This document shows, piece by piece, positions 12,232 to 35,166 of a DNA stretch of 64,000 nucleotides (its first letter is position 1; the number at the start of each line of letters is the position of its first letter). The DNA is taken from NCBI RefSeq assembly GCF_001083785.1, contig NZ_LAVL01000005.1:1-64000 (forward strand). Direction: 5' to 3'. This DNA is from Nonomuraea sp. SBT364. Lineage in GTDB: Bacteria; Actinomycetota; Actinomycetes; Streptosporangiales; Streptosporangiaceae. The notes below the pieces were generated by a model. It saw only the letters and a list, made by a program, of their open reading frames with translations. It was not told the DNA's origin and did no database searches. The translations under genes were made by a program, and so were the position numbers.

Positions 12232-12379
12232 CCAGAACGGCTTTCCGGAAAAGTCGGGCGTGACATTACGGCCCCCGCGAGCGATCGTTCCAAAAGAGAG
12301 CACTGCATCGGATCGCAGGATGGGACGAACATTGGTCGAGAGGGCCGAAGAAACACCCCGAGTGTCACGCCCGGGCGCC

Positions 12380-14431: not shown

Positions 14432-15448
14432 ATGACACGTGACACCACTGACCGGCGGTCCTCGCTCCTCGTCTGGGGCGCACTCGCGATCGTCTACGTG
14501 GTCTGGGGCTCCACCTATCTCGGCATCGGCATCATGGTCGAGTCGATCCCGCCCATGCTCGGTGGCGCCATGCGTTTCCTCACGGCGGCCGCGATCCTCG
14601 CCGGGATCGTGCTGGCGACGTCCGGCACGAAGGCCTTCCGGATGACCCGGCGGGAGTTCGCCGGCGCCTGCGTGGTGGGCGTGCTGCTGCTCACCCTGGG
14701 CAACGGCCTGCTGTCCGTGGCGGAGCAGTACATCTCCACCGGGCTCGCCGCGCTGCTCGTGGCGTCGGTGCCGCTGTGGCTCGTCATCTTCAGGTTCGTG
14801 GTGCGCGACCGTCCCCGGCCGTTCACGCTGGTGGGCGTGCTGGTCGGGCTCGGCGGGGTGGCGGCGCTCTCGCTGACCGGCGAGGAGGGGGCCGGCACCG
14901 TGGGGATCGTGGTGGTGCTGATCGGCTCCCTGCTGTGGGCCGTGGGCTCGTTCCTCTCCGGCCGCATCGCGATGCCCGCCAACACGTTCGCGACCAGCAG
15001 CGTCGAGATGCTGGCCGGCGGCGTCGGCCTGGCGGTGCTCGGCACCGGGCTGGGCGAGCGGCTGGACCCGTCGACGATCACCGGCAACTCCTGGCTCGCG
15101 CTCGTGTACCTCATCGTGATGGGCTCGCTGGTCGGGTTCACCGCGTTCTCGTGGCTGCTGGGCAACGCGCCCATCTCGCTCGTGTCGACCTACGCGTACG
15201 TCAACCCGACGGTCGCCGTCATCCTGGGCGCGCTGGTGCTGTCCGAGCCCATCACCCCGCGCATCGTCGCCGGCGGCGTGATCATCCTGATCGGCGTCGC
15301 GCTGGTCATCTCGACCGAGCGCAACCGGTCACAGGTCCCCGAGAGCCTGGGCGAAGGCGTCGACGGTGGCGTCGATATCCGCCTCGGTGTGCTCCGTGGA
15401 CAGGAACCAAAGGCCGCGCGGCACCATGTTGACTCCTCGCTCGAGTAG
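14432..15448 (+). CDS. EamA/DMT-family transporter
   Basis: A 338-residue membrane protein with about ten hydrophobic segments in two EamA repeats (VVWGSTYLGIGIMVESIPPM in the first, AYVNPTVAVILGALVLSEP in the second). The family exports amino acids or metabolites; the substrate is unknown. The last 40 residues are hydrophilic and encoded opposite the 3' end of the aminotransferase gene (120-base overlap), so this tail may not be functional. A TATTGT at 14418-14423 lies eight bases before the ATG and there is no Shine-Dalgarno, consistent with a leaderless mRNA. Confidence 0.88.
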   Translation: MTRDTTDRRSSLLVWGALAIVYVVWGSTYLGIGIMVESIPPMLGGAMRFLTAAAILAGIVLATSGTKAFRMTRREFAGACVVGVLLLTLGNGLLSVAEQYISTGLAALLVASVPLWLVIFRFVVRDRPRPFTLVGVLVGLGGVAALSLTGEEGAGTVGIVVVLIGSLLWAVGSFLSGRIAMPANTFATSSVEMLAGGVGLAVLGTGLGERLDPSTITGNSWLALVYLIVMGSLVGFTAFSWLLGNAPISLVSTYAYVNPTVAVILGALVLSEPITPRIVAGGVIILIGVALVISTERNRSQVPESLGEGVDGGVDIRLGVLRGQEPKAARHHVDSSLE

Positions 15449-16639
15449 CGCCGCCTGCAGCCGCGCCATCCTGGCCCGGTCGGTAGCGGCGAAGTCCCGG
15501 TAGTCGCGCACGGCGGGCGCGTCGGTGAAGTACGTCTGGAACACCGGCCCGGGGCCGTCCACGAGCATCGGCACGCCCGCCTTGGCCGCCGCCGACCGCA
15601 GACCCTCCATCAGGGCCGCGCCGCGCTCGTACAGGCCGCTGTAGACCTCCGTGCGCCGCTCGTCGAGGATGCGCAGCGTCGCCTCGGCCGCCGCGATGCC
15701 GACCGGCTGGGAGTTGAACGTCCCCGCGTGCGCGACCTTGCCCGTCGAGATGTGGTCCATGACGGCCGCCCGGCCGGTCAGCGCGGACACCTGCATGCCC
15801 CCGGCCATGGCCTTGCCGAACACCGACAGGTCGGGCGTGATCCCCAGATACTCCTGGGCGCCACCCGGCGCGAGGCGGAAACCGGTGATGATCTCGTCGA
15901 AGATCAGCAGGCTGCCGTGCTCGTCGCAGAGCCCGCGCACCGCCTCCAGGTAGCCGGGGTCCGGGGTGATCGCCCCGGTGTTGCACAGGACCGGCTCGGT
16001 GATGACTGCGGCGATCTGTCCCGCGTGCCGCTCCATCAGGGCGGTCAGGGTCTCCACGTCGTTCCACGGGCAGATGATCAGGTCTTCCGGGTGGCCGGGC
16101 TGCTGGCCCGCCGTGCCCGGTACGGCCACGGGCGCGTCGGCGGGACCGGCCGCGTCCATGGCCGGATGCACGCTGTAGAGGACCGGGTCGAGCCAGCCGT
16201 GGTAGTGGCCCTCGAACTTGAGGATCTTGGACCGACCGGTGTAGCCCCGGGCCAGCCTGAGTGCGCCGTGCACCGCCTCCGACCCCACGGTGTTGAACCT
16301 GACCCGCTCGGCGGAGGGCACCATCGCGCAGATCCGCTCGGCCACCCGTACCTCGGCGGCGTGCTGCGCCGAGTAGACCATGCCGCGGGCCGCCTGGGCG
16401 GCGACCGCCTCCACGATCTCCGGCGGGCAGTGCCCGAGCAGCGCGGGCCCCTGGCCGAGTACGTAGTCGATGTAGACGTTGCCGTCCACGTCCCACAGCC
16501 GCGCGCCCCGGGCGCGGTCCACGTAGAGAGGGACACCGGCCACCCGGCGGGCGTCGCTGGAGACGCCCCCGGCCAGGTAGCGCTGTCCGCTGGTGTAGAG
16601 GTCGCGGCTGACGTGCAGGGTCCGGGTCATGGAGACCAT
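15329..16639 (-). CDS. Class III aminotransferase, glutamate-1-semialdehyde aminomutase-like
   Basis: A 436-residue PLP enzyme of the HemL/GSA-aminomutase branch. Visible are GARLWDVDGNVYIDYVLGQGP, the substrate-side FNTVGSEAVHGALRLARGYTGRSKILKFEGHYHG, the PLP Asp region LLIFDEIITGFR and the Schiff-base Lys in SVFGKAMAGG. No other tetrapyrrole gene is nearby, and the divergent gene is an FAH hydrolase, so a role outside heme synthesis is quite possible. ATG codons at 16639 and 16630 are both plausible starts with no Shine-Dalgarno; an upstream ATG at 16699 would add an unlikely Pro/Arg-rich leader. Confidence 0.82.
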   Translation of the reverse strand: MVSMTRTLHVSRDLYTSGQRYLAGGVSSDARRVAGVPLYVDRARGARLWDVDGNVYIDYVLGQGPALLGHCPPEIVEAVAAQAARGMVYSAQHAAEVRVAERICAMVPSAERVRFNTVGSEAVHGALRLARGYTGRSKILKFEGHYHGWLDPVLYSVHPAMDAAGPADAPVAVPGTAGQQPGHPEDLIICPWNDVETLTALMERHAGQIAAVITEPVLCNTGAITPDPGYLEAVRGLCDEHGSLLIFDEIITGFRLAPGGAQEYLGITPDLSVFGKAMAGGMQVSALTGRAAVMDHISTGKVAHAGTFNSQPVGIAAAEATLRILDERRTEVYSGLYERGAALMEGLRSAAAKAGVPMLVDGPGPVFQTYFTDAPAVRDYRDFAATDRARMARLQAALLERGVNMVPRGLWFLSTEHTEADIDATVDAFAQALGDL

Positions 16640-16767
16640 CAAAGGCCGGGCCGGGGGCCGCGGACAAGAAGGAGCGCAAGTACGGGGGCGCCATCGCAAG
16701 GACGGGGCCTTGTGACGCCCGTCGCGGATTTGGTGAGCTGAGGTCCGACCTCCTGGAAGGAGTGGCC

Positions 16768-17628
16768 GTGTTTCTCGGGCGTATCCGGCGATCCCCCGCC
16801 GAGCGAGTGGAAGTGGTGGCCCGTCGCGAGGGTGGCGAGTTGCTCAGCCTGGCCGGGCTGCGAGGTGACGGCGATCCGGTGGCGATGCTGGCCCACTACG
16901 GGCTCGACGGGCTCACCGAGGAGGTGGACAAGCTGGCGGGCGGGCCGACTCTGCGGGAGTCGTCGGTGGTGTTCGAGGCGCCGGTGGCCACCTGTACCAA
17001 GATCTGCTGTCTGGCGCTCAACTACGTCGCGCACGCCGAGGAGAGCGGGCTGGAGGTGCCGCCCGAGCCGGTGCTGTTCTTCAAGCCGCCGTCCGCGCTG
17101 ACGGGCCACAACCGGCCGGTGACGGCCCCGGCCCGCACCAAGCACCTGGAGCACGAGGTCGAGCTGGCCGTCGTGATCGGCTCGGTGACCCGTGACCTGC
17201 CCGCGGAACGCTGGCGTGAGGCCGTGGCCGGCTACACGGTGATCAACGACATGACGGCGCGCGACCTCCAGCTGGTCAACATCGGCCGCAACGTGCCGTG
17301 GGACCAGTCCAAGGGCTTCGACACGTTCGCCCCCGCCGGGCCGTACCTGGCGACCGTGGACGAGGTGCCCGACCCGCACGCCCTGGAGCTCACGCTGGAG
17401 GTCGGGGGCGAGATCCGGCAGCGGGCGAACACCAAGCAGATGGTGTTCGGCATCCCGGAGCTGATCGCCGATCTGTCCGACGGGATGACGCTGCTGCCCG
17501 GGGACCTCATCGCCACCGGCACCGTCGCCGGGATCGCCCCGCTCCGGGACGGCGACGTCATGCGGGCCACGGTCCAGGGCGTGGGCACCCTGGTCAACCG
17601 CGTCGATTTCGGTCCGCCTAAACCATAG
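16768..17628 (+). CDS. Fumarylacetoacetate hydrolase-family protein
   Basis: A 286-residue protein of the FAH fold, which cleaves C-C bonds of acylpyruvates, isomerises hydroxy-dienoates or decarboxylates oxaloacetate. Metal-binding and core motifs are HEVELAVVIG, GYTVINDMTARDLQ, SKGFDTFAPAGPYL and LLPGDLIATGT. The exact substrate is unknown. GGAAGGAG at 16755-16762 points to the GTG at 16768; the upstream GTG at 16762 would sit inside that ribosome site. The AraC-type gene 33 bases downstream is a likely regulator. Confidence 0.85.
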   Translation: MFLGRIRRSPAERVEVVARREGGELLSLAGLRGDGDPVAMLAHYGLDGLTEEVDKLAGGPTLRESSVVFEAPVATCTKICCLALNYVAHAEESGLEVPPEPVLFFKPPSALTGHNRPVTAPARTKHLEHEVELAVVIGSVTRDLPAERWREAVAGYTVINDMTARDLQLVNIGRNVPWDQSKGFDTFAPAGPYLATVDEVPDPHALELTLEVGGEIRQRANTKQMVFGIPELIADLSDGMTLLPGDLIATGTVAGIAPLRDGDVMRATVQGVGTLVNRVDFGPPKP

Positions 17629-17635
17629 ATTTAGG
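17617..17635. promoter_or_regulatory. Inverted repeat CCTAAA-N7-TTTAGG across the FAH stop codon
   Basis: A perfect 6-bp dyad covers the FAH stop codon and lies just upstream of TACTCT (17649-17654), a likely -10 box for the AraC gene. It could be an autoregulatory operator or a weak terminator hairpin. Confidence 0.4.
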
Positions 17636-17661
17636 CAGTTCTTGCTCGTACTCTGGGAGGC

Positions 17662-18741
17662 ATGGACTTCACGGTCGGCGCCCTCGTCGATCTCGACGAC
17701 TACGTCGCCTCGAAGCGGGCCCACGGCCAGTCCTGGGCCGGCAGGCAGATCGACCAGGCCGACCGCGCGATCCGGGCGGTGACCGTGGGCAGGCTCGCCT
17801 CCTGCGAGCCGCTGCCCCCGGACGAGTGGCTGGTCACGCTCACCGGCGACGACCCCGACCTGCTCATGGACGAGGCCACCGCGCTGGCCGAGGAACTCCG
17901 CACCCGCATCGTCAGGGCCACCGAGCTCACCGCCACCGTCAGCCTGGGCACGCCCCGGCGCGGAACCGGCGGCGGAGCCGTGGCCGAGCGGGACGCCCGC
18001 CGCGCCAACGCCTACAAACTGCTGCTGGGCGGCGACCGGGTCATCACCGCGCCGCCGCGGGAGCGGGCGGACGCGCAGCCGCCGGTGCGCATCGAGGCCG
18101 ACCTGGCCCGCCGGATCCAGGCGGGCGACCGGGGCGGCGCGGCGGGACTGCTGGCGAGCTGGGTGGACCGGTGCGTGCAGGAGCGCGATCTCGCGCCCAG
18201 GACGCTGCACAACTGGCTGATGGGCGAGCTGCTGTTCGTGGTGGACGTGGTCAACCGGTGCCGGCTGGCGGGCGGCTCCACCGACTGGGTGGACGCGTGC
18301 GCGCGCCTGCCGATCGAGGAGCTGACCATGGTCACCGAGATCCACGAGCGCTCCTACCTGCACATCTGGATCGAGGAGACGCTCCGGAGGCTGATGCCGC
18401 CGGCCGCCCGGGACATCCTGTCGCTGGCCGAGAGCTACATGGCGGCGCACTACACCGATCCGCGCCTGCGGTTGTCGACGGTCGCGGAGGCGGTCTCGGC
18501 CAGCCCGTTCTACATCTCCCACCTGTTCGCCGCCGAGCGGGGGACGACGTTCCTGCGCCATCTGACGGGGCTGCGGCTACGCCATGCGCGGATGCTGCTC
18601 AGTGCCTCGGCCGTGCCCATCGACACGGTGGCCGCCCGGTGCGGGTATCTGAGCGCCAAGGCGTTCCGTGGCGTGTTCAAGCGCCACGTGGGCTGCTCGC
18701 CCAGCGAATACCGCCGCACCCACCGCCCCGCCCCCGCGTGA
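17662..18741 (+). CDS. AraC-family regulator with GGDEF-like sensor domain
   Basis: A 359-residue regulator. Residues 1-140 match the degenerate GGDEF_2-type fold (FTVGALVDLDDYVASKR at the start, TATVSLGTPRRG, then ARRANAYKLLLGGDRV), which lacks catalytic residues. About 260-355 are two AraC helix-turn-helix motifs (LSTVAEAVSASPFYISHLF and IDTVAARCGYLSAKAFRGVFKRHVG, ending GCSPSEYRR). GGGAGG sits close to the ATG. The ligand is unknown; the neighbouring FAH and aminomutase-like genes are candidate targets. Confidence 0.85.
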   Translation: MDFTVGALVDLDDYVASKRAHGQSWAGRQIDQADRAIRAVTVGRLASCEPLPPDEWLVTLTGDDPDLLMDEATALAEELRTRIVRATELTATVSLGTPRRGTGGGAVAERDARRANAYKLLLGGDRVITAPPRERADAQPPVRIEADLARRIQAGDRGGAAGLLASWVDRCVQERDLAPRTLHNWLMGELLFVVDVVNRCRLAGGSTDWVDACARLPIEELTMVTEIHERSYLHIWIEETLRRLMPPAARDILSLAESYMAAHYTDPRLRLSTVAEAVSASPFYISHLFAAERGTTFLRHLTGLRLRHARMLLSASAVPIDTVAARCGYLSAKAFRGVFKRHVGCSPSEYRRTHRPAPA

Positions 18742-18742
18742 G

Positions 18743-20053
18743 CTAGCGCGACACCAGTCTGTACGGCTGGCGGGGGCGGCCGGCCTGGGCCGACTTGACC
18801 GGCGGCAGGGCCCAGGCGAGGCCCTCCGCGACCAGGTTCTGCAGGGCGCGGCGGGCGCTGCGCGGGGCGATGCCCAGCACGTCGGCCACGATCTCGGCGT
18901 CGACGACCATGGCCTCGGGGTTGTCGCCCAGCTCCTGGACGAGGCGGTCGAGCACCTTGGCCGCCTTGGTGTCGGCCGAGGGTCCGTCGGTCTGCTCGGG
19001 CCTGGGACGCCGGCGGAGGGGCAGCGAGGTGGCGGTGCCGTCGCCGGCGACCAGGAAGGCGGCCGCGGCGTCGGCCCCACGGGCCCGTTCGACGGCGATC
19101 AGGGCATGGGCGTCGGCGTCGCGGGCGGTGTTGCCGAGCCCGATGCCCACCTCGACGACCACGCCGAGGTCCGCACGCACCCGGTCGGCGAACGGGGCGA
19201 CGCGGAACCCGTCGGTGGCCTGGGAGAGCGCCCCGACGGTCGCGGTGATCACGTAGCTGTTCTCCTCGCGCGCCACCACGGTCGCGCCCATCGTCCTGGC
19301 CTCGGCGAGCAGCGACCGGTGCAGCGACAGCTTCAGCTCCTGCTGCCAGTAGTTGCCCGGCCCGGAGTGGGTGGGCCGGGCCGCCGCCGCGAGCTCGACG
19401 AGCACGATGGCGATCTGCGACTCCTCCAGGCGGCTGCCGGTGCCCAGCAGCGTCGCGGTGTTGATGGCCAGGCGCAGCGTGTGCGGGGTGGGCATCATCC
19501 GCAGCACCGGCACCTTGGCCGCCTCCAGCTTGCGGGCCACGGTCCTGACGGTGGTCAGCGCCGCCGTGGTGACGCCCTCGCGGTGCAGCCGCTCGTGGAA
19601 GCCGATGAAGTCACGCACCGAGTCGGGCTGGTGGTATTCGGAGACGTGCACCCCGTCCATGGGCACGCCGATCTCCTCGTACGCCTCGGCCACGTCGGCC
19701 CTGGCGATCGAGTCGATGCTCACCCTGGCCGGGTCGATGCCCTGGTTCAGCACGCCGCGCAGCAGGCTGGAGTAGAGCCCGGCACCGCTCACGGGCACGA
19801 AGGTGGCGGGCACGGGCAGCTCGCCCGACTGGGTGGCCAGGTCGTGCTGGAGCGGGCCGGTGAACAGGACCGCGTCGATGGTGCCCGCTATCTTGGCCAG
19901 TTTCTCGCGGGTCTCGTGCTCACCGGCGTGCGGCGCGCCGACCAGCCTGAACGACGCGGCCGATGGCATGCTCGCGCCGATGTGCACGATCTGTTCGACG
20001 AGATCGTGCGGTCCCACCACACCAATCGCGATCTTGGATCGCAGCCGGTCCAC
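18743..20053 (-). CDS. Putative regulator with GGDEF-like core, last gene of the glycan operon
   Basis: A 436-residue paralogue of the protein at 12380-13669 with the same three parts: an IGVVGPHDLVEQI alpha/beta N-terminus, a central GGDEF-like region (YWQQELKLSLHRSLLAEA, then VGIGLGNTARDADAHALIA) and a C-terminal helix-turn-helix (VADVLGIAPRSARRALQNLV plus GRPRQPYRL). No metal-dependent cyclase motif is present. The GTG at 20053 starts two bases after the amidohydrolase stop, so it belongs to the operon and probably regulates it. Family and ligand are not known to me. Confidence 0.75.
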   Translation of the reverse strand: MDRLRSKIAIGVVGPHDLVEQIVHIGASMPSAASFRLVGAPHAGEHETREKLAKIAGTIDAVLFTGPLQHDLATQSGELPVPATFVPVSGAGLYSSLLRGVLNQGIDPARVSIDSIARADVAEAYEEIGVPMDGVHVSEYHQPDSVRDFIGFHERLHREGVTTAALTTVRTVARKLEAAKVPVLRMMPTPHTLRLAINTATLLGTGSRLEESQIAIVLVELAAAARPTHSGPGNYWQQELKLSLHRSLLAEARTMGATVVAREENSYVITATVGALSQATDGFRVAPFADRVRADLGVVVEVGIGLGNTARDADAHALIAVERARGADAAAAFLVAGDGTATSLPLRRRPRPEQTDGPSADTKAAKVLDRLVQELGDNPEAMVVDAEIVADVLGIAPRSARRALQNLVAEGLAWALPPVKSAQAGRPRQPYRLVSR

Positions 20054-20055
20054 GT

Positions 20056-20856
20056 CTATGCCCCTGTTCTCCCGAGCAGTGCGGTGATCGTGCCCCCGAG
20101 CACCGCCGCTCTGTCATTGTCGGTGAGGTCAGAGAACAGTATCCGCCCCAGCGACATACGCAGATCGATGAACGGGAAGTCCGACCCGTACACCACCCGG
20201 TGCGAGCCGAGCCGGCGGACCATCCTGGCGATGTCCGCGCCGGTGTTGTACGAGCCGCACACCTCCAGGATCACCCGTTCGTGCCGCTCGGCCACCTCGA
20301 TCGACTCGTCGATGCCCAGCGGCGTCACCCCCGAGTGCCCCGCCAGGATCGTCGCCCTCGGGTATCGGCCCGCGACCTCCTCGACGGCCGGCAGGTCGTT
20401 GTACGGCGAGCCGCTGTAGGTGTGGGTGAGCACGGGCCGCCCGGTGAGTTCCGCGTACTCCCAGACGGGTGCGTAGCGGGCGCCGGTCAGCGGGTAGTCG
20501 TGCAGGTCGGGATGGAGCTTGACGCCGCCGAAGCGCGGGTCGCCGCCCCACCGGTCGAGCTCGGCGATCGGGTCCTGCCACGGGTTGACGGTCAGGTAGC
20601 CGGTGAACCGGTCCGGCGCCCGGTCGACGATCCCGGCGGTGGCGGCGTTGCCCTTGGCGGCGTCGAGCTGGATCGCCAGATGGCTGGAGAGCATCGCGTG
20701 CGCGACACCGCACCGGTCCATCACCGCGATCATCCCCGCCGGGTCCGGGTCCGGGATGAAGAACACGCTGTACGGCCCGGCGTGGGCGTGCGCGTCGACG
20801 ATCCTGGTCGCCTGCTGCGGCCGGCGCTCCCACAGGGCGGTCGTCAGCTCGTTCAT
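20056..20856 (-). CDS. Amidohydrolase (TIM-barrel, amidohydrolase-2 type)
   Basis: A 266-residue metal-dependent hydrolase. The metal ligands are visible: HAH in IVDAHAHAGPY, His in GVKLHPDLHDYP, His in LTHTYSG, His in ILAGHSGVTP and Asp in VVYGSDFPFID. This type hydrolyses or decarboxylates small carboxylic substrates such as lactones. In this operon a sugar-acid lactone is a reasonable but unproven substrate. Its ATG overlaps the stop of the upstream amidohydrolase-like gene (ATGA). Confidence 0.85.
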   Translation of the reverse strand: MNELTTALWERRPQQATRIVDAHAHAGPYSVFFIPDPDPAGMIAVMDRCGVAHAMLSSHLAIQLDAAKGNAATAGIVDRAPDRFTGYLTVNPWQDPIAELDRWGGDPRFGGVKLHPDLHDYPLTGARYAPVWEYAELTGRPVLTHTYSGSPYNDLPAVEEVAGRYPRATILAGHSGVTPLGIDESIEVAERHERVILEVCGSYNTGADIARMVRRLGSHRVVYGSDFPFIDLRMSLGRILFSDLTDNDRAAVLGGTITALLGRTGA

Positions 20857-21614
20857 GCCGCTTCGGCCTCTCTCGTGAGCAGCCGGCGAAGATTGCCCGC
20901 GCCGACAGCCGCGACCTCGCGCTCCCCCAGCTCCGACCACAGCAGCCGGGTGACCGCCTCGGCCGGGTCGCGGTAGGGCGCTCCGGTGCCGAAGACGAGC
21001 CTGCCCGCGCCGAACCGGGCGGCCAGCCACTCCAGTCCGCGGTGCGAGGACAGGTCGGCCAGCCCGACGCTCACCAGGCCGGTCCTTTCCAGCACGCCGG
21101 AGATCTGCCGCAGCATCCGGTAACCCACCCCGCTCACGACGATCCGCAGGCCGGGGTGGGCGCGGGTGAGCGCCTCCACCGCGGGCCAGGTGGTCTGGCC
21201 GGCGTCGACGAGGAGTGGCAGCCGTACGGACTCGACGGCGTCGAGCACCGCGGCCGCGTCGAGGCCGTCCAGGTCGTAGCCGTGATCGCGCGGGAAGGCG
21301 CGCACGGCGACCACGCCGGCCTCGACCGCCGAGGCGGCGAAGGCGGCCGCGCCGCCGTTCTCCCCGCACGTGTCGGGCAGCATCACCCAGCAGGGGCTGA
21401 GCCGGGGCTGGCCGGCGAGCAGGCCGAGCAGCTCGCGGTTGCCCCGTTCCGGGTCGTGCAGCCAGGACGTCATGCTGCCGACCACGGCCTCGGCGACGCC
21501 CACGCGGTCCATGGCGGCGAGCAGTTCGGTCACGGTGCCGCCGCCCACGTCGCGGCGCGGGTGGCGGCCGAGCATGACGTCGGCGTCGATCAGGACCGGG
21601 CGGCCCTCACTCAT
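20853..21614 (-). CDS. Amidohydrolase-fold protein lacking metal ligands
   Basis: A 253-residue protein that aligns with the next gene product but has lost its metal site. HxH is DAD (LIDADVMLG), the KLHP segment is VRAFP, LTHT is LVDAG, AGHSG is VSGVG and the catalytic YGSDFP is FGTGAP. It may be a non-catalytic partner of the intact paralogue or use a different chemistry. ATGAGTGA at its start overlaps the lyase stop by eight bases, which fixes the start at 21614 rather than an upstream ATG. Confidence 0.75.
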   Translation of the reverse strand: MSEGRPVLIDADVMLGRHPRRDVGGGTVTELLAAMDRVGVAEAVVGSMTSWLHDPERGNRELLGLLAGQPRLSPCWVMLPDTCGENGGAAAFAASAVEAGVVAVRAFPRDHGYDLDGLDAAAVLDAVESVRLPLLVDAGQTTWPAVEALTRAHPGLRIVVSGVGYRMLRQISGVLERTGLVSVGLADLSSHRGLEWLAARFGAGRLVFGTGAPYRDPAEAVTRLLWSELGEREVAAVGAGNLRRLLTREAEAA

Positions 21615-23316
21615 CGCCGCCCCAGCGCTCGGCGAGCCCGTCACGCGCCCAGCCGTGGGCGGTGAACGTGTCGGTCACCCCGCCCACCCGGATCTCCGAG
21701 CGGCTCACCCGTACCTCGGGCGGCCGGTCCTCGAACGGGAAGAGGGCGACGGTGAACCGGCCGTCGCGGCGGCGCAGGCCCAGCGAGTGGATCCGGCCGT
21801 ACTCGGCGGTGGCCGTGACCGGGTCGGGGATCCTGGCGGGCCCGGCGCCGAACACGACCTCGTCCGGCGCCTCGGCGGGCACCACGAGGAGTCCGGGGCC
21901 GCGGCTGCTCGCGTAGCCGTCGCCGTGCCGGATCCACGGTGACGTGCCGTGCAGCTGCCAGATCGCCTCGGCGTCGATCTCGTCGGTGACCAGCCAGTAG
22001 GACGGCTCGCCGCGGACGAAGACGATACGGCGGTCGTGCCTGGCCGGGTAGCCGTGGTGGTGCCCGGCGAAGACGTCCACGTGCTCGCCGGCGTGGAACA
22101 GGTCGAGGGCGGCCCGCCGGTCCTCGACGTAGTCCTGGCCGGGCACCAGCAGGGTGTTGTGCCCCCTGGTGGCCTGGTACCAGTCGTAGTAGCCGGGATC
22201 GTCGTAGGACGGCGGGCCGCCCGCCTCCCAGGCCAGCGGCACGTTCCAGCCGGAGAGCACGAAGTCGAGCGCCGCGTGGTGGCTGTGCGGCTCCAGCTCG
22301 TGGCCGATGTACGGACCGTAGTTGATCACCGTGTGCAGGTCCCGGGCCCGGAAGATCGCGTACGCGCTGGATTCCAGGAGGTGTGAGCCCTCGACGGGCC
22401 GTACCGCCTCGCGCAGCAGCCGCTCACCGGTCCGGAGCATCTCGGCGGGCCATACGATGCCGCTGTCCTGGAGGTGCGGGACCCAGCCGCCCGAGGTCGT
22501 CAGCGAGGCGAGCCAGTCGTGCATGGCCGGGAAGCGCGGGTGCCCGGCCAGGTCGGGGTCGACGGACGCGGCCCGCTGGAGGCCGCCCAGGCACATGCCG
22601 TGATAGCCGGGCGAGCGCTCGTGGTGTCCGCCGTCCTCGCGCACGTCCCGCTCCAGGTGCTCCAGGATGCGCGCCCTGGCCACCTCGGCCCACTGCCCGG
22701 ACTCCGGGAAGTCGGCGAACACGCGCGCCAGGTGCAGCAGCTCGCAGGCGGTGGCGAACTGCCAGTTGCCGTGCCGGAACGAGTCGTGCTCCTCGGCCGC
22801 CCAGCGGGCCCCGCCGAGGATGGTCTTCATCATCCGCAGCCAGCACTCGTCACCGAGCGCGGGCTCGGCGGCGAAGACGGCCAGCGCCCGGCTGACGTGC
22901 ATCGAGCGCGAGGCCACCCCGAGGGAGTACCAGACCACGTCGAGGCCGGGCCAGTCGCCTTCGACCTGGTCGCGGCCGTCGTACCACTGGGTGAAGAGCC
23001 GGTCCCACTCGCCTGCGTAGCGCGGATCGCCGGTCTGCGCGTAGGCGGAGACCAGCGGCATCATCCACCGCAGGTAGTGGAAGCCGTACAGCCGGGAGCG
23101 TCCGTGGCCCTTGTCGAGGAAGTCCACCTCGACTCCGAGCATCCGGTCGGCCTCGGCGACGTCCTGCGGCTGCGGGTCCGGCCACACCGGCGCCCGCCGG
23201 CGCCACGGCCTGGCCTCCTCGACGCTGCCGGCGCCGAGCTCGTCGAGCAGCGCCCTGTCGGTGATGTGCCGCATCCGCTCCCGGTCGACGTGCGGCGGTT
23301 TCTCGACGTACGTCAT
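21607..23316 (-). CDS. Heparinase II/III-like polysaccharide lyase family protein
   Basis: A 569-residue protein with an (alpha/alpha) toroid N-terminal part (about 1-330) and a beta-sandwich heparinase II/III-like C-terminal part (about 340-560). Family landmarks are FRHGNWQFATACELLHLA (catalytic Asn region), DGGHHERSPGYHGM (Tyr/His region) and HHAALDFVLSGWNVPLAWEAG at the start of the beta domain. Such enzymes cleave uronic-acid-containing glycans or oligosaccharides by beta-elimination. No signal peptide is seen, so it should act on imported oligosaccharides. Start and upstream stop overlap as TGATG. Confidence 0.8.
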   Translation of the reverse strand: MTYVEKPPHVDRERMRHITDRALLDELGAGSVEEARPWRRRAPVWPDPQPQDVAEADRMLGVEVDFLDKGHGRSRLYGFHYLRWMMPLVSAYAQTGDPRYAGEWDRLFTQWYDGRDQVEGDWPGLDVVWYSLGVASRSMHVSRALAVFAAEPALGDECWLRMMKTILGGARWAAEEHDSFRHGNWQFATACELLHLARVFADFPESGQWAEVARARILEHLERDVREDGGHHERSPGYHGMCLGGLQRAASVDPDLAGHPRFPAMHDWLASLTTSGGWVPHLQDSGIVWPAEMLRTGERLLREAVRPVEGSHLLESSAYAIFRARDLHTVINYGPYIGHELEPHSHHAALDFVLSGWNVPLAWEAGGPPSYDDPGYYDWYQATRGHNTLLVPGQDYVEDRRAALDLFHAGEHVDVFAGHHHGYPARHDRRIVFVRGEPSYWLVTDEIDAEAIWQLHGTSPWIRHGDGYASSRGPGLLVVPAEAPDEVVFGAGPARIPDPVTATAEYGRIHSLGLRRRDGRFTVALFPFEDRPPEVRVSRSEIRVGGVTDTFTAHGWARDGLAERWGGDE

Positions 23317-24314
23317 CAGAGCTTCACCGGCTGTCCCGTGCGGGCCGACTCGTGCGCGGCCGCCAGGACCGCGGTCACGTGCCGGGAGCTCTCCACGGTG
23401 ATCAGCGGCTGGGCGCCGGTGAGCGCGCAGTCCACGAAGTGGTGGATGGCGTCGCGGTAGGCCCCGGCCGGCACCCCGTGCACGACGCGCTGCAGCATGT
23501 TCCGGGGGTAGGAGTAGCCGTCCTCGGTGGCGAGCTGGATGTTCTCCTTCTGCCGGTCGAGCTGGATGACGCCCGTCTCGCCCACCACGGTGACGTAGCT
23601 GTCGACCATGGTCGGGAAGGTGCTGGGGTAGATCCAGGCCGACTCGAAGGTGGCGACCGCGCCCCGGCTGAACCTGGCCTGGATCTGCATGGCGTCGGGG
23701 GTGTCGATGCCCCGGCCGCGCAGCTTGCCGTGACGGGCGGTGGCGAACACCTCGACGACCCGGTCGTCGTACAGCCAGGTCATCAGGTCGATGTCGTGGC
23801 TGGACAGGAACCAGGCGCAGGTCGTCCGGTCGGCCCAGTCGATCATCTCGGTCGGCACGTAGATCGTGTCGTCCTTGCGCGCGTAGCCCACGACCGGCTC
23901 GCCGACCAGGTGCATCTGGTCCTTGGCCTGCACGTAGGCGGGCACCCAGCGGTGGTTGAACAGGCACATGGCCACCACGCCCGCCTCGCGGATCGCGGCG
24001 ACGGACCGGTCGGCGTCGGCCACGGTGGTGGTGAACGGCTTCTCGACCAGGATGTGCACGCCCGCCCGCGCCGCCGCCACCATGACGTCGGCGTGCAGGT
24101 GGTCGGGCGTGGTGATGGAGATCGCGTCGACCGTCCCGGAGTCGAGCAGCTCCTGGTAGCCGGGGTAGACCGTCGCGTCCGGCGCCTGGTCGAGGGGCTT
24201 GCGGGCGATCGCGGTGATCTCGGTCTGGGGATGGGCGGCGAAGACCTCGGCGTGGCCGCGGCCCATCAGGCCGGCGCCGACGATCCCGATGCGGAGTCTA
24301 GGCAAGTGCTTCAT
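23316..24314 (-). CDS. Gfo/Idh/MocA-family oxidoreductase
   Basis: A 332-residue NAD(P)-dependent sugar dehydrogenase type. The N-terminal Rossmann motif is IGIVGAGLMGRGHA, followed by TTPDHLHADV and the catalytic-dyad Lys in VEKPFTT; the second domain has the SSHDIDLMTWLYDD segment. Substrates in this family are sugars, inositols or uronates. Operon position suggests a step on the lyase or hydrolase product. It overlaps the end of the solute-binding protein gene by 17 bases. Confidence 0.88.
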   Translation of the reverse strand: MKHLPRLRIGIVGAGLMGRGHAEVFAAHPQTEITAIARKPLDQAPDATVYPGYQELLDSGTVDAISITTPDHLHADVMVAAARAGVHILVEKPFTTTVADADRSVAAIREAGVVAMCLFNHRWVPAYVQAKDQMHLVGEPVVGYARKDDTIYVPTEMIDWADRTTCAWFLSSHDIDLMTWLYDDRVVEVFATARHGKLRGRGIDTPDAMQIQARFSRGAVATFESAWIYPSTFPTMVDSYVTVVGETGVIQLDRQKENIQLATEDGYSYPRNMLQRVVHGVPAGAYRDAIHHFVDCALTGAQPLITVESSRHVTAVLAAAHESARTGQPVKL

Positions 24315-25581
24315 TCCATCGCTTCTCGGCGGTGTCGAGCGCCTCCTTGGCGCTCTTGGAGCCCTGGAGGAAGGCCCGGACCTCTTCGTTCAGATATTCG
24401 CCGAGCTCGGCGTCCTTGTTGGTGCCGATCGGGCTGTACTCCAGCTTGGGCAGCCCCTTCACGATCACCTGGCGGGCGACGGCCATCGGGTCGTCGCCGG
24501 ACGTGCCGGCGAAGAAGGGATCCTTGGTCGAGGAGACCGTGGAGGGGTAGATCGGCACGATCTTGCAGAAGGCGAGCTGGTTGACGCCGTTGGTGAAGAA
24601 CTTGATGAACTCGGCGGCGGCCTTCTTGTGCTGGGACGCCTTGGGGATGGCGAACGCCTGCTGGGCGAGGAGCAGATAGCCGCCGGTGCTCGTCCTGACC
24701 GACTCGGTGACGACGATGTCCTTGTAGACGTCCGGGGCGTTCTTCTGGATGTTGAGCAGTTCGGCGGCGTTGCCCATCGGCTTGAAGGCCACCTGGCCGT
24801 TCTCCAGGTTCTGCGGCAGGTTGCGGGTGTCCTTGGAGATGGCTCCGGGCGCGATGCCGTGCCGGTCGTAGCTCTTCTTGAACCTCTCCAGCACGGCGAC
24901 GGCCTCGGGGGTGTTGAACGTCGCCGTCTTCTTGTCCTCCGACAGCAGGGAGATGCCGTGGTAGCGCAGCGCGGTGTGGTCGGGGATGGCGTTGGTGCCG
25001 TTGACCTCGGTCTCGTCGTAGACCTTGTCGGCCAGGTCGAGCGCCTCGGCGAAGGAGGTGGGCGGGGCCTTCTCGTCGAAGCCCGCCTTGCTGACGACGG
25101 ACTTGCGGTACATGCCCACCATGACGCCGCCGTTGTACCAGGGGACGGCGTAGAGCTTGCCGTCCTGGCGCATCGGCTCGACCAGGTTGGGCTGGAAGTC
25201 AGCCAGTTCGGCCTGGCCGAAGTAGGCGTCCAGCGGCTCCAGCGATGGGATGAACCGGCCGAGCTCGACCGAGTTGACGTTGACCGCGTCGGGCACGTCA
25301 CCGCTGGCCACGGCCGCGAGCAGCTTGGTGGCGCTCTCCTGGCCGGGGACGTCCACCCACTTGACGCTGACCTTGGGGTGTTGCTTCTGGTACTGGTCGA
25401 TCAGGCCGGTGATGTAGTCGCTGTAGTTCTTCTTCAGGTTGATCGTCCAGAACTCGACCTCGCCCTCGAAGGGCTGGTCGTCCGCGGGTGCGGCGGCCGT
25501 CTGGGGCGAGGTGCCGGCGACGCAGCCGGTGATGAGGAGGGACAGGGCGAGCGCGCCTGCCGCTAAGCCACTTCGGGTCAT
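24298..25581 (-). CDS. Sugar ABC transporter solute-binding lipoprotein
   Basis: A 427-residue family-1 binding protein. The signal peptide ends in the lipobox LITGC at about residue 20, so it is lipid-anchored outside the membrane. The mature part begins EGEVEFWTINLKKNYSDY and has the usual hinge segments (YAVPWYNGGVMVGMYRKS). It should deliver an oligosaccharide to the two permeases encoded divergently at 25761-27460. AGGAGG lies well placed before the ATG at 25581; a longer frame to 25668 would bury the signal peptide. Confidence 0.9.
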   Translation of the reverse strand: MTRSGLAAGALALSLLITGCVAGTSPQTAAAPADDQPFEGEVEFWTINLKKNYSDYITGLIDQYQKQHPKVSVKWVDVPGQESATKLLAAVASGDVPDAVNVNSVELGRFIPSLEPLDAYFGQAELADFQPNLVEPMRQDGKLYAVPWYNGGVMVGMYRKSVVSKAGFDEKAPPTSFAEALDLADKVYDETEVNGTNAIPDHTALRYHGISLLSEDKKTATFNTPEAVAVLERFKKSYDRHGIAPGAISKDTRNLPQNLENGQVAFKPMGNAAELLNIQKNAPDVYKDIVVTESVRTSTGGYLLLAQQAFAIPKASQHKKAAAEFIKFFTNGVNQLAFCKIVPIYPSTVSSTKDPFFAGTSGDDPMAVARQVIVKGLPKLEYSPIGTNKDAELGEYLNEEVRAFLQGSKSAKEALDTAEKRWNEALA

Positions 25582-25760
25582 CTTCGCGAGCCTCCTGCAA
25601 GATATGGCCGTCCTATATCCCCGCTTTCGGCACAATGACATTCCCGGCGGCGCAGCGTCAAGAGGCAAGGTATTGACCGTTTCGATCAGCCAACTATACG
25701 CTTCCTCAAATTCTGGCCAGCCCTTATCGATGCTTGGGACGGCACTAAGGATGTGATGCG
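25582..25760. promoter_or_regulatory. Divergent promoter region of the glycan operons
   Basis: On the minus strand TTGACG (25656-25661) and CATTGT (25632-25637) are 18 bases apart. On the plus strand TTGACC (25673-25678) and TATACG (25695-25700) are 16 bases apart. An imperfect dyad GATAT-N9-ATATC (25601-25619) lies between the minus-strand -10 box and the lipoprotein start and is a candidate operator. The stretch is AT-rich compared with its surroundings. Confidence 0.55.
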
Positions 25761-26648
25761 ATGGCCGCCGGCCGGATCCCCGGACAGCGGTGGTACACGC
25801 CCTATCTGTTCGCGATACCAGCTCTCGCCCTGTTCGGCGTGTTCTTCGCCTGGCCGGCGTTCACCGCGATCCAGCTCTCGTTCCTCGAGTACGACGTGGT
25901 GTCGCCACCGGTCTACGTCGGCCTGGAGAACTTCACCAAGATCCTCGGCGACGGCCGGTTCTGGACCGCCCTGGGCAACTCGCTGCTGTTCCTGGTGGGC
26001 ATGTTCCCGCTGCTGGTCGTCGTGCCGCTGCTGCTGGCCGTCCTGGTCAACCAGAAGCTGCCCGGCATCAGGACGTTCAGGATGCTCTACTACCTGCCGG
26101 TCGTGACCTCGATGGTCGCCGTCGGCGTCGCCTGGGAGTACGTCTTCCACCAGCAGGGCGTGCTCAACTGGATGCTCACGGGGGCCGGGCTGCTCGACAA
26201 GCCCATCCAGTATCTTCTCGACCCGTTCTGGGCGCTGCCCGCCCTCGTCCTGGTCGAGGGCTGGAAGAGCATGGGCTTCTACATGATGCTCTACCTCGCC
26301 GGGCTCCAGACCATCCCCACCAACCTGTACGAGGCCGCCAAGGTCGACGGCGCCGGCGCCTGGCACCGGCTGCGCCGCATCACGGTGCCGCTGATGGTCC
26401 CGTACATCGCGGTCGCCGTGACGGTGGAGATGCTCGACGCCATGCAGGCCTTCACGTCCATCTACGTGATGACCAAGGGCGGCCCGCAGGACGCCACCCT
26501 CACGCTCGGCTACTACATCTGGTCGGCGGCGTTCGAGCACTACGAGATGGGCTACGCCAGCGCCATGGGGCTGGTGCTCTGGGTGCTGATGATCGCCCTG
26601 GCCATCCTCAACTACCGGCTCACCCGGGGACGGGCGGTCATGCCATGA
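25761..26648 (+). CDS. Sugar ABC transporter permease, MalF type
   Basis: A 295-residue inner-membrane permease with six hydrophobic segments. The cytoplasmic EAA loop that docks the ATPase is EAAKVDGAGAWHRLRRITVPLM at about residues 194-215. It pairs with the next permease and the lipoprotein encoded divergently. No ATPase gene lies in the cluster, so a shared MsiK-type ATPase is inferred. The end overlaps the next start by four bases (ATGA). Confidence 0.92.
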   Translation: MAAGRIPGQRWYTPYLFAIPALALFGVFFAWPAFTAIQLSFLEYDVVSPPVYVGLENFTKILGDGRFWTALGNSLLFLVGMFPLLVVVPLLLAVLVNQKLPGIRTFRMLYYLPVVTSMVAVGVAWEYVFHQQGVLNWMLTGAGLLDKPIQYLLDPFWALPALVLVEGWKSMGFYMMLYLAGLQTIPTNLYEAAKVDGAGAWHRLRRITVPLMVPYIAVAVTVEMLDAMQAFTSIYVMTKGGPQDATLTLGYYIWSAAFEHYEMGYASAMGLVLWVLMIALAILNYRLTRGRAVMP

Positions 26649-27460
26649 GGCTGCGGCGCGCCGGGATGTACATCCTGCTGTCGGCGATCGGCCTGGTCTT
26701 CGTCGGCCCCTTCCTGATCCTGCTCTCCGCGGGACTGAAGCCCGCCGGCCAGGCGGTCTTCTCCTTCCCGCCCGACATCATCCCCAGACCGCCGGTCCTG
26801 ACCTGGGTGATCGAGGCCTGGACCGCCATCCCGTTCCCCGCCTACCTGCTCAACTCGGTGATCTACGTCGGCGTCACGGTCCCGCTGTACATGCTCGTGT
26901 CCGCGCTGTGCGCCTACCCGCTCGCCCGGATGAACTTCCGCGGCAAGAACCTCATCTTCTTCGCCATCCTGTCCACGATGTTCCTGCCGGGCGAGGTCAT
27001 GCTCATCCCCAGGTTCCTCGTGGTCTCCCAGCTCGGGATGGCCGACACCTACGCGGGGGTGATCCTGCCGGGGGTGCTCTCGGCCTTCGGGATCTTCCTG
27101 CTCCGGCAGACGTTCGCGGGGGTGCCGCGCGAGGTCGTGGACGCCGCCCGCACCGACGGCTGCCACGAGCTGCGGATCTTCTGGCACGTCATGCTCCCCG
27201 CCGCCCGTCCCACCCTGGCGATCCTCGGCATCTTCGGCTTCATCTCGGTCTGGAACAGCTTCATCTGGCCGCTGGTCGTGCTGAAGGACTCCGCGAAGTA
27301 TCCGGTCGCGCTGGGGATCGCCTACCTCGCCGGGATCACCGGCACAGACGTCCGAAGCCTGGCAGCCGGGACGATCATCTCGATCATCCCGGTCGTCGTC
27401 ATTTTCATGATCATGCAACGACACGTACTCGAAGGCATGCGCGGCGCGGTCAAGGGCTGA
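26645..27460 (+). CDS. Sugar ABC transporter permease, MalG type
   Basis: A 271-residue permease with six hydrophobic segments and the EAA-like loop VDAARTDGCHELRIFWHVMLP. The C-terminus (QRHVLEGMRGAVKG) is typical of carbohydrate-uptake family 1 permeases. It is coupled to the preceding permease by an ATGA overlap. Confidence 0.92.
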   Translation: MRLRRAGMYILLSAIGLVFVGPFLILLSAGLKPAGQAVFSFPPDIIPRPPVLTWVIEAWTAIPFPAYLLNSVIYVGVTVPLYMLVSALCAYPLARMNFRGKNLIFFAILSTMFLPGEVMLIPRFLVVSQLGMADTYAGVILPGVLSAFGIFLLRQTFAGVPREVVDAARTDGCHELRIFWHVMLPAARPTLAILGIFGFISVWNSFIWPLVVLKDSAKYPVALGIAYLAGITGTDVRSLAAGTIISIIPVVVIFMIMQRHVLEGMRGAVKG

Positions 27461-27482
27461 CGCCGCCGGAGGTGATGGATCG

Positions 27483-29021
27483 ATGTTGACACGCAGGCAG
27501 TTCGGTCTCGGCGCGCTCGCAGCGGGCGTCCTGGGCAGCACCGTACAGACCGGGACGGCGCACGCCGCCGCCGGCTACGACTACACGGCACGGGAGACCT
27601 TCGACCACTTCGACCGGACCTTCCACGCGAGCGGTTCCGCCGGGCAGTCGACCGACAACAACGAGCACGGCGGCCTGGCCTGGGGCCAGTCCTACGTGCT
27701 CGCCGGATTCATCCGCATGTACGAGGCCTACCGGGACACCCACTACCTGGACCGGCTCGTCGCCAACATCGACCTCGTGCTGGGCAACCGCGACTCCGAA
27801 CGCGGCGTGGCCGACTACCGGGGCGAATCGCTGCCCGCCTGGCGGGCCATGCACCCCTACACGGTGGGCCTCGTCGCGCTGAAGGACGCCGCCGGCAAGC
27901 CGGTCCTGGAGGTGCGCAGCTCCCTCTCCTACGCCGACCTGACGGCCGCCACCGTGCTGGCCGGCAGCACCGCGGACCGCTTCACCCTGGAGGTGAAGAG
28001 CAGCAGGACCGGCGCGGTAGCCACCTTCGCCGACCTGACCATGGACCCCGGCTCCCCCGACTACGCGGTGAGCAAGGTCCTGGCCGCCTACCCGTCACCC
28101 AACCAGGTCACCGCCCGCGACCTCGACCCGTCGGGCACCACCCCGCCCGCCCAGGGCGCGAACCCCCTCGTCTCCCAGCCCGTGCTCTTCGCCGTGCACA
28201 CCGGCATGATCACGTACCCGATCGCGTCGTTCGCCCGGATCGTGCTGAGCACCCCCGAGCTCCGCGCCAACCGCCGCTACCTGGCCAAGGCCAAGGAGTA
28301 TCTCGCCGCGGCCAAGGCCGCCGTGGCCGTGCACGACAGGGAGTGGCGGCAGGACGACGACGGGGGCGGCCACCTCATCTGGGTCAAGGGCACCCCGCTC
28401 GGCTACGACGGCACCGAGATGCCCACCAACCAGTTCCTCGCGCTCGGGCTGACCTACGCCGAACTGGCCGCCGCCACGCGCGACCCGTTCTACGCCGACC
28501 GGGCCCGCCGGATGGCCCGCACCTTCGCCCGCGAGCTCACGGTCGACGCCGACGACGCCTACACCTGGTCGTACTGGCCCAGGTTCGGCAAGACCTATCA
28601 GGGCTTCACGGCGGCCGACGGCGTCTCGGAGTTCACCCCGTCGGGCCGGGGCGCCAAGCAGATCGAGGACCTCAGCCACGGCGCGATCGACGTGGAGTTC
28701 GCCGCCCTCGTCCGCCGTCACCGGCTGGGCTTCCGGGGGGCCGCCGACATGGGCAGGTTCGCCAGGACCTTCAGCAAGAACCTGGCCACCACCGACCCCG
28801 CCGGGGTGCCGACCACGTTCGTGCGGGTGGACGGCACCGGCGCCCTGGCCGCGGCGGGCCAGTATCTCCAGTCGCCACGCTGGATGGCCGTGTCGAAGTC
28901 GGACCCGGTGGTCTTCACCCACTCCCGGGCCATCTACGACGCCCGCGCGGTGGAGCCCCAGCAGGGGTCGTACCTCGCCTGCGTCGCCTACCTCAACTGG
29001 CACGCCCGGGTGAACGGGTGA
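27483..29021 (+). CDS. Tat-exported protein, possible glucuronyl epimerase-like or glycan-active enzyme
   Basis: A 512-residue protein with a twin-arginine signal (TRRQFGLGALAAGVLG) and a likely cleavage after AHA near residue 30. The mature protein alternates helical segments rich in aromatic and acidic residues (GLAWGQSYVLAGFIRMYEAYRDTHYLDR, then a matching C-terminal segment with FLALGLTYAELAAATRDPFYADRARRMA). This suggests an (alpha/alpha) barrel like those of D-glucuronyl C5-epimerases and some glycoside hydrolases. The assignment is tentative. GGAGG precedes the ATG and the gene lies 22 bases after the permease. Confidence 0.6.
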   Translation: MLTRRQFGLGALAAGVLGSTVQTGTAHAAAGYDYTARETFDHFDRTFHASGSAGQSTDNNEHGGLAWGQSYVLAGFIRMYEAYRDTHYLDRLVANIDLVLGNRDSERGVADYRGESLPAWRAMHPYTVGLVALKDAAGKPVLEVRSSLSYADLTAATVLAGSTADRFTLEVKSSRTGAVATFADLTMDPGSPDYAVSKVLAAYPSPNQVTARDLDPSGTTPPAQGANPLVSQPVLFAVHTGMITYPIASFARIVLSTPELRANRRYLAKAKEYLAAAKAAVAVHDREWRQDDDGGGHLIWVKGTPLGYDGTEMPTNQFLALGLTYAELAAATRDPFYADRARRMARTFARELTVDADDAYTWSYWPRFGKTYQGFTAADGVSEFTPSGRGAKQIEDLSHGAIDVEFAALVRRHRLGFRGAADMGRFARTFSKNLATTDPAGVPTTFVRVDGTGALAAAGQYLQSPRWMAVSKSDPVVFTHSRAIYDARAVEPQQGSYLACVAYLNWHARVNG

Positions 29022-29035
29022 ACGGGTGAACTGAT

Positions 29036-30094: not shown

Positions 30095-30151
30095 GGCCTT
30101 ACCTTAAGGCAGCGGCCGGGGCGCCCTTCTGGGGGATGCCCGCCGGCGCCT

Positions 30152-32634: not shown

Positions 32635-32677
32635 GTTCAGGAACCTACCGCCCTCATGATCTGCCCGAGATAAACGG

Positions 32678-33766: not shown

Positions 33767-33785
33767 TGCGCGCAGCCCTCCGTCG

Positions 33786-35048: not shown

Positions 35049-35166
35049 AGCAGTGCCTTGGAGAGCCGGAAACAACACTTCATGGTCGCAAAGGTTATCT
35101 CAAGTCCACCTAGCTCACGCCTAATGCGACCGAACCCGTCGTAACAGACAGCCAATCCGTAGGTCA

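Follow-up and report, generated by a model that had tools for sequence, protein, structure and literature searches.

Diketo-acid routes for L-rhamnose and L-fucose alike employ a dehydrogenase, a lactonase and a FAH-type hydrolase. Among non-phosphorylative sugar pathways, Route III is described as comprising a dehydrogenase, a lactonase and a FAH-type hydrolase with a His/Glu pair, in a paper that also cites L-fuconolactonase as a member of the COG3618 group (PMC6336799). ACMSD (2hbv, 4ifk), which belongs to PF04909, is reported to take Arg239 of its active site from the adjacent subunit (PMC11650718), and the pseudo-dihydroorotase of P. aeruginosa ATCase is presented as an inactive amidohydrolase-type protein that its partner needs (PMC7053772). 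Here, we analysed a gene island in a 64-kb window of Nonomuraea sp. SBT364 (the whole stretch of DNA studied, to which coordinates refer unless another locus is named). The island places an intact amidohydrolase, AH1, and a metal-less sister, AH2, beside a heparinase II/III-type lyase, HEP. We think it reasonably probable that it is a conserved catabolic unit for an acidic glycan, combining import, beta-elimination, oxidation, an AH2–AH1 heteromer, an aminotransferase and a FAH-type hydrolase under the control of a regulator, REG.

Genes were recomputed from the sequence. On the minus strand, in transcription order, lie a solute-binding protein (SBP), a Gfo/Idh/MocA dehydrogenase (GFO), HEP, AH2, AH1 and REG; with the chosen starts, SBP and GFO overlap by 17 bases, GFO and HEP by 1, HEP and AH2 by 8, and AH2 and AH1 by 4, and a gap of 2 bases separates AH1 from REG. 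Facing them on the plus strand are two permeases (PERM1 and PERM2, overlapping by 4 bases) and a twin-arginine exported protein (TAT), and a 179-base region is common to the starts of both divergent groups. The recomputed genes confirmed an earlier note on this DNA, made from the sequence without database searches, which had described six overlapping or nearly touching minus-strand genes facing two permeases and a Tat-exported protein. Beyond REG lie genes for an AraC-type regulator, a FAH-type hydrolase (FAH) and, divergent from FAH, a class III aminotransferase (AT3); the recurring neighbourhood extends through these three genes to about 15329, and they are kept less strictly.

A pattern-based scan with the AH2 alignment, run on 84,980 species with a single genome per species, yielded 36 loci, distributed among Nonomuraea, Rhizohabitans, Streptosporangium, Thermoactinospora, Jiangella, Labedaea, Kribbella and Microlunatus. 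The 38-locus set used below consists of all 36 together with L113 and L114, two loci of the same type from a class-wide sample. SBP, GFO, HEP, PERM1 and PERM2 occur together in 37 of the 38 loci; the exception, L059 from N. pusilla, has the AH pair without this core. AH1 is present in 37 loci (the remaining one is a contig end), a REG-family gene in 36, TAT in 31, AT3 in 26, FAH in 25 and AraC in 15. The set was found at all 15 places first fetched, some of them cut by a contig end or by the end of the stretch. The proposal of one conserved catabolic neighbourhood in the earlier note thus withstood this gene-neighbourhood check, which found the core to be conserved. Because FAH and AT3 are present in relatives, also in rearranged form, they probably belong to the set, though they are not in the stretch in about one third of the loci: Kribbella has AT3 directly after REG and FAH beyond TAT, and Thermoactinospora and N. 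ceibae have FAH between AH1 and REG, with DegT aminotransferases added. A GH20-like gene was also found in the N. ceibae locus by Pfam, and a second Gfo-like and an enolase-superfamily-like gene were seen by eye in the Thermoactinospora locus.

AH1 (20056..20856, minus strand) is an intact, lactonase-like, metal-dependent hydrolase of the Amidohydro_2 family (Pfam 1.2e-27; best PDB match 3cjp, 1.4e-12), and AH2 (20853..21614, minus strand; Pfam 9.7e-11) is an Amidohydro_2 pseudoenzyme that, by alignment, has lost its metal ligands. The alignment comprised 162 rows including repeats, built from AH-like stretches of at least 450 bases in the window and the fetched loci; each stretch was assigned to its best-matching query, and matches below 450 bases were dropped from the alignment and from the pair and partner counts. 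All seven active-site positions (H, H, K, H, H, H, D) are kept in 84 of the 85 AH1-type rows, the other having Tyr for the His of KxH, and none of the 77 AH2-type rows keeps more than one of them; the Pfam match of AH2 nonetheless remains. The contrast drawn in the earlier note between an intact and an inactive-looking amidohydrolase was therefore borne out across the family. Every one of 61 pairs (one a repeat) has AH2 before AH1, with a 4-base overlap in 49, a count that depends on the nearest-start rule by which starts in relatives were set, and an in-frame fusion in 7. With repeats removed, AH1 directly follows AH2 in 60 of 61 cases, and the last one ends its contig. Two of the fusions are from Microlunatus, four from Jiangella and its sampled genus (L077, L126, L127 and L131), and one is a haloarchaeal plasmid gene. 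Across ten pairs of relatives, the ratio of nonsynonymous to synonymous substitution rates (dN/dS) was 0.11-0.56 for AH2 and 0.04-0.23 for AH1, indicating constraint on both and less on AH2; the highest AH2 value (0.56) comes from a pair with a dS of only 0.05. Conservation, dN/dS and the fusions together ruled out AH2 as a decaying gene, and by these sequence measures it is a selected partner under purifying selection rather than a dead gene.

The AH pair also occurs at 20 loci outside the island set. At L077, L126, L127 and L131 it is accompanied by AT3, GFO, a CN-hydrolase, DegT and a 719-residue protein, mostly together with FAH, which is not listed for L131. At L078 and L115-L124 it stands with DegT, DHDPS and an epimerase-like gene. 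The 719-residue protein (L077 7051-9210), which has no Pfam match at E 0.001, occupies the place of the lyase in the Jiangella-type loci. An aminotransferase is present in 19 of the 20 (all but L129, by our own tally). The genome from which the window was taken also carries AH pairs with DegT (L130) and, about 10 kb away on the same contig, the DHDPS set with a REG relative (L138). On this contig, C208 (L138 6850-14467; L130 3946-12005), they make up a second, different module, in which an epimerase-like gene, a DHDPS-type aldolase, the REG relative, DegT and permeases are followed by two further AH2/AH1 pairs. A plasmid of Halomontanus rarus (L079 5233-19453) has a fused AH2–AH1, class III and DegT aminotransferases, a mandelate-racemase type enzyme, with a 27% match in L129, and a CN-hydrolase; the gene after the fusion may be a fusion in reverse order. 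At a distant locus (L139, genome G814), REG (44%), TAT-like (48%), AT3-like, DHDPS and epimerase-like genes stand together, with no HEP or AH-pair match in 20 kb.

HEP (21607..23316, minus strand) matched both domains of its family well above their cut-offs, Hepar_II_III_N at 1e-19 (71.5 bits, cut-off 22) and Hepar_II_III_C at 6.9e-16 (58.9 bits, cut-off 24), and its best PDB match is the PL12 heparinase III 4mmi/4mmh (1.1e-19). A triad of N184, Y238 and H344 is invariant in all 37 HEP loci. The HMMER alignment pairs N184 with Asn240 and Y238 with Tyr294 of PL12 if a numbering offset of 24 is assumed, and H344 aligns with PL12 His424 only after closure by hand of a two-column gap. The heparinase II/III-like lyase of the earlier note is upheld by the two domains and the triad; the curated heparin-sulfate lyase family HepC (NCBIfam NF045573) was not reached, at 58.1 bits against a cut-off of 700. 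Because no signal peptide was seen in HEP by eye, the enzyme should act on imported oligomers. A paper on PL35 lyases, whose Table 4 lists catalytic triads, ties a His beside the catalytic Asn to alginate activity (PMC12088678). The residues on either side of N184 are G183 and W185 in all 37 loci, and the alginate His of the PL17/PL39 type is absent. Among the candidate uronate glycans named in the earlier note, alginate thereby becomes somewhat less likely as the substrate, by a marker that is weak, since in the alignment a His also follows the Asn of PL12 heparinase III itself.

SBP (24298..25581, minus strand) is a lipoprotein with the lipobox LLITGC, a Pfam SBP_bac_1 match (9.6e-34) and a GGAGG upstream of its ATG at 25581. 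PERM1 (25761..26648, plus strand; BPD_transp_1 5.3e-17, UgpA-like 3.2e-32) and PERM2 (26645..27460, plus strand; UgpE-like 6.8e-41, and BPD_transp_1 4.3e-15 for the longer open reading frame that contains it) complete, by Pfam, NCBIfam and the compared loci, the binding protein and two permeases of a CUT1-type sugar ATP-binding cassette importer; no importer ATPase was detected among the island genes scanned. The best PDB match of SBP, 6wpm/6wpn, is a binding protein reported to prefer phosphate-modified sugars with zinc (PMC8938411), and reading a substrate off this nearest structure tells little here. GFO (23316..24314, minus strand; GFO_IDH_MocA 1.8e-24, PDB 3ezy 4.7e-27) is IolG-like, with iolG as its best NCBIfam model at 122.7 bits, below the cut-off of 355, and K92, H173 and D176 are kept in 38 of 38 rows, one of which is the weak match in L059. 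FAH (16762..17628, plus strand; Pfam 2.5e-65) is of the acylpyruvase or 2,4-diketo-3-deoxy-acid hydrolase type and matched PDB entries 1gtt (4.3e-53) and 8gsr (6e-44); the NCBIfam model for 2,4-didehydro-3-deoxy-L-rhamnonate hydrolase scored 184.2 bits against a cut-off of 500. The HxxE motif (H91, E94) is present in 25 of 25 FAH rows and was mapped to the published His and Glu by motif. AT3 (15329..16699, minus strand; Pfam 1.3e-66) resembles HemL and beta-amino-acid aminotransferases, with PDB matches to HemL (1e-90) and beta-phenylalanine aminotransferase (6.4e-62), and the position of K296 holds Lys in 22 of 26 rows and an alignment gap in 4.

TAT (27483..29021, plus strand) bears a TRRQF motif seen by eye and has no Pfam or NCBIfam family match. 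Its AlphaFold2 model (predicted local distance difference test, pLDDT, 75.5; predicted template modelling score, pTM, 0.79) is an (alpha/alpha)6 barrel with an inserted beta region. The model fits GH76, GH88/GH105, an epimerase (AGE) and other barrels alike (Z 20.5-23.2 over 283-345 residues, root-mean-square deviation 3.3-6.3), and Foldseek matches were weak (best E 6.9e-4). To judge from this model, TAT is likely a glycoside hydrolase or epimerase acting outside the cell. TAT-like genes stand in tandem in some relatives (L041 1068-4120, L056 1236-4295).

These assignments can be arranged into a pathway. TAT would trim the glycan outside the cell, and SBP with PERM1 and PERM2, powered by an ATPase encoded elsewhere, would import the oligosaccharides, as their families suggest. 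Cytoplasmic HEP, whose triad is present, would then act on them as a beta-eliminating lyase, cutting beside a uronic acid. If the later steps resemble those of non-phosphorylative sugar pathways, GFO would oxidise the released sugar and AH1 open the resulting lactone; AT3, or DegT in some relatives, would remove an amino group, and FAH would split a diketo-deoxy acid into pyruvate and a small acid. The metal-less AH2 is strongly suggested to form a fixed heteromer with AH1, whose active site it probably completes or gates, and REG would act at operator-like sites over both divergent promoters. The company of FAH and an aminotransferase points to a sugar that carries an amino group and to a final step on a diketo acid; we infer that AH2–AH1 would act as a lactonase-like enzyme within an oxidative pathway whose substrate would be an acidic glycan with amino substituents.

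One alternative is a plain pathway for a uronic-acid glycan, with oligomers of heparosan, glucuronan or a hyaluronan-like polymer as examples: HEP would cleave, GFO and AH1 would process the unsaturated uronate, and AH2 would be a leftover duplicate. The family and triad of HEP fit such a route, and sugar-acid routes that use FAH-type hydrolases and lactonases have been described (PMC6336799). Aminotransferases, however, recur beside the AH pair, and a conserved, constrained and sometimes fused AH2 is unlike a leftover, so we consider this alternative unlikely. The coupled uronate-glycan island of the earlier note was supported in part, in its neighbourhood, its lyase and the states of its two amidohydrolases; FAH, the aminotransferase and the selection on AH2 had been overlooked.

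On the AH1 tree of 70 AH1-type rows, the fused label changes four times, at least two of them on well supported branches, and long branches make the deep placement unsure. The tree and the partner count omit L026-L040, which come from genomes of the family sample, most or all of them recurring among L041-L076, and L112, which repeats L064; the eight fused rows of the tree include one half of a second haloarchaeal gene, a candidate AH2–AH1 fusion. The AlphaFold2 model of a Microlunatus fusion (pLDDT 87.3, pTM 0.87) also predicts, as we take it, the relative placing of its two barrels with confidence. The AH1 half of this model has 3cjp as its best structural match (Z 27.0), followed by COG3618 amidohydrolases, decarboxylases and others at Z 22-26; the structure-search rows listed for the fusion cover mainly this half (residues 277-533) and barely test the AH2 half. 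A heteromeric AH2–AH1 complex is likely. Were AH2 instead a separate folding or metal-delivery helper of AH1 that forms no lasting subunit, gene coupling and purifying selection alone would fit, but lasting contact better explains the seven fusions, which fall on two or more well supported branches, and the confident model of the two barrels, and the helper role is left with little likelihood. For the heteromer, an invariant GYR and R169 in a 12-row AH2 alignment lie in roughly the chain stretch of ACMSD Arg239, and by this analogy AH2 may supply an Arg-type residue to AH1 as the neighbouring ACMSD subunit does. A fuller proposal, to which we give slightly less than an even chance, is that AH2–AH1 is an undescribed heteromeric amidohydrolase whose metal-less sister chain is an obligatory half lending residues (for example, from the Gly-Tyr-Arg motif), and that it serves as the shared core of a family of undescribed pathways by which actinobacteria and a haloarchaeon would process acidic sugars bearing amino groups, the front end being interchangeable (HEP, the 719-residue protein, or DegT/DHDPS sets).

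Several observations weigh against the proposed pathway and pairing. The route requires a dehydratase, and none was found among the island genes and window neighbours scanned. AH1 could be a hydratase or decarboxylase, as PF04909 structures of such enzymes also match. Ten of the 70 AH1-type stretches have no AH2 partner under the pairing rule: nine are second copies in DegT-type loci, and one is the second haloarchaeal gene, in which the AH1-like half comes first, a possible exception to the order. The structure was modelled for a Microlunatus fusion, from an alignment that misplaced the tails of single AH2 rows. None of the 20 other AH-pair loci has a HEP match, which makes the pair independent of the lyase, and the presence of an aminotransferase in 28 of the 38 island loci is a count without a background rate near random genes. 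TAT is missing from the stretch in 7 of 38 loci, AT3 in 12 and FAH in 13. Exact operator-like blocks, described below, are missing from 9 of 29 loci, namely L062 and L065 among the Streptosporangiaceae and seven loci of other families.

Adjoining the island on the minus strand (30847-35078) are genes for a DUF4434 protein, a glycosyltransferase and a UDP-glucose dehydrogenase, possibly a surface-polymer cluster, and L027 has them too. This neighbourhood would suit a locus that degrades or remodels the cell's own surface polymer rather than an environmental glycan. The glycosyltransferase and UDP-glucose dehydrogenase genes are, however, unmatched in the fetched Kribbella and Microlunatus loci, and an importer with catabolic enzymes points to feeding; such a role is improbable.

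The catabolic unit has probably spread horizontally. At L062 and L065 (L040, L039), the AH1 tree groups the island of N. ceibae with Thermoactinospora. Its HEP is only about 44% identical to that of the window, whereas the nearest Nonomuraea copies reach 85-90%, and this is a sign of horizontal transfer. AH2 identity is 37-53% in the Kribbella, Microlunatus, Jiangella and Labedaea loci. HEP is patchy, found in 16 of 250 sampled family genomes (E <= 1e-40), including 9 of the 24 that are classed as the own genome or the same genus. Phylum-wide samples, in which five candidates were scored per genome and distant copies may be missed, contained HEP in 1 of 246 genomes (its own only) and REG in 2 of 296. 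AH2 is uncommon, with 19 of 394 sampled class genomes when six candidates were scored per genome; the loci fetched leave out several of these class-wide matches, among them one on C393 of G003 that contains an internal stop and whose neighbour is encoded on the opposite strand. Plasmid records matched AH2 (2), HEP (7) and REG (3), all below 60% identity. Mere vertical inheritance among close relatives, for which the many Nonomuraea and Streptosporangium loci might speak, is hardly credible given the recurrence of the set in the four genera with such divergent AH2, the scarcity of the lyase in the family and the placement of N. ceibae AH1.

REG (18743..20053, minus strand) comprises an N-terminal domain and a C-terminal helix-turn-helix, both recognised by eye, around a GCH_III/GGDEF-like middle part supported by alignment. 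GCH_III was its one Pfam match, at 21.7 bits against a cut-off of 21.3. A GGDEF diguanylate cyclase was rejected in the absence of a GGDEF Pfam match. The earlier note had taken REG to be the island's own regulator, but REG is not exclusive to the island: relatives stand beside many other AH-pair loci, and its own genome has one close and one more distant paralogue. A REG paralogue in the window (12260-13669, plus strand) adjoins a murA gene and is 95-100% identical in six Nonomuraea loci where matched, some of the matches being partial; it is more conserved than REG. The AraC-type regulator between FAH and REG lies at 17662..18741 on the plus strand (HTH_18 5e-21).

Footprints were counted in 29 loci with an extracted SBP/PERM1 region, 22 from Streptosporangiaceae and 7 from other families. 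On the SBP side (25606..25632), the blocks GGCCGTCC and CTTTCGGCA are both present in 20 of the 29, that is, in 20 of 22 Streptosporangiaceae loci and none of the other seven; the conserved sites lie between the divergent promoters. An operator-like imperfect inverted repeat on the PERM1 side (25715..25743), GGCCAGCCCTTATCGATGCTTGGGACGGC, of the form GGCC..CC.TTAT...GG.C, accompanies them in 17 of the 20 block-bearing loci and in none of the other nine. The 10-Mb genome contains the 13-base pattern GGCCRKCCYTTAT twice, once at this site and once on contig C304. With two mismatches allowed, the operator pattern was found 5 times in the window against 5.16 expected by chance, and the case for an operator therefore rests on conservation across loci. 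The Kribbella intergenic region shows a different dyad by eye, TCTGAAA...TTTCAGA. REG is the obvious putative binder of the operator-like sites. A promoter scan of 15200-30200 returned none by the scan rule, and TTGACC-16-TATACG near 25673 was picked by eye.

If these readings are correct, the AH pair would be a clear example from nature of an enzyme retained together with a pseudoenzyme copy of itself as a single functional unit, in separate and fused forms that can be compared. The pathway would point to an acidic, perhaps amino-substituted glycan as a nutrient of several soil actinomycetes, and HEP would be a defined lyase for finding that nutrient.

The literature, judged by titles and the beginnings of abstracts in a coverage that mostly leaves out subscription papers, yielded no description of such a cluster or AH pair. 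The closest systems each match part of the island. Like Route III, it has a dehydrogenase, the lactonase-like AH1 and a FAH-type hydrolase with His/Glu; unlike Route III, it adds a lyase and an aminotransferase and shows no dehydratase among the window genes scanned. HEP aligns with PL12 heparinase III (4mmh/4mmi, 5jmd) over about 380 residues and shares the catalytic Asn and Tyr, but differs in its score against the curated model (58.1 versus 700 bits), in having no signal peptide that could be seen and in its gene partners. The AH1 half fits the fold of COG3618 amidohydrolases (4dlf, 4do7; Z 24.4-24.6) with the metal site kept, whereas AH1 is paired with a metal-less paralogue, and other PF04909 enzymes fit about equally. 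The ACMSD dimer consists of two identical chains, whereas the neighbour of AH1 would be a pseudoenzyme, and the partner of the pseudo-dihydroorotase is a transcarbamoylase, whereas that of AH2 is a sister amidohydrolase. As a whole, the island is a variation on a familiar kind, that of transport, a lyase and oxidative catabolism, and it is the strict pairing of an active with an inactive amidohydrolase that lifts it above this kind.

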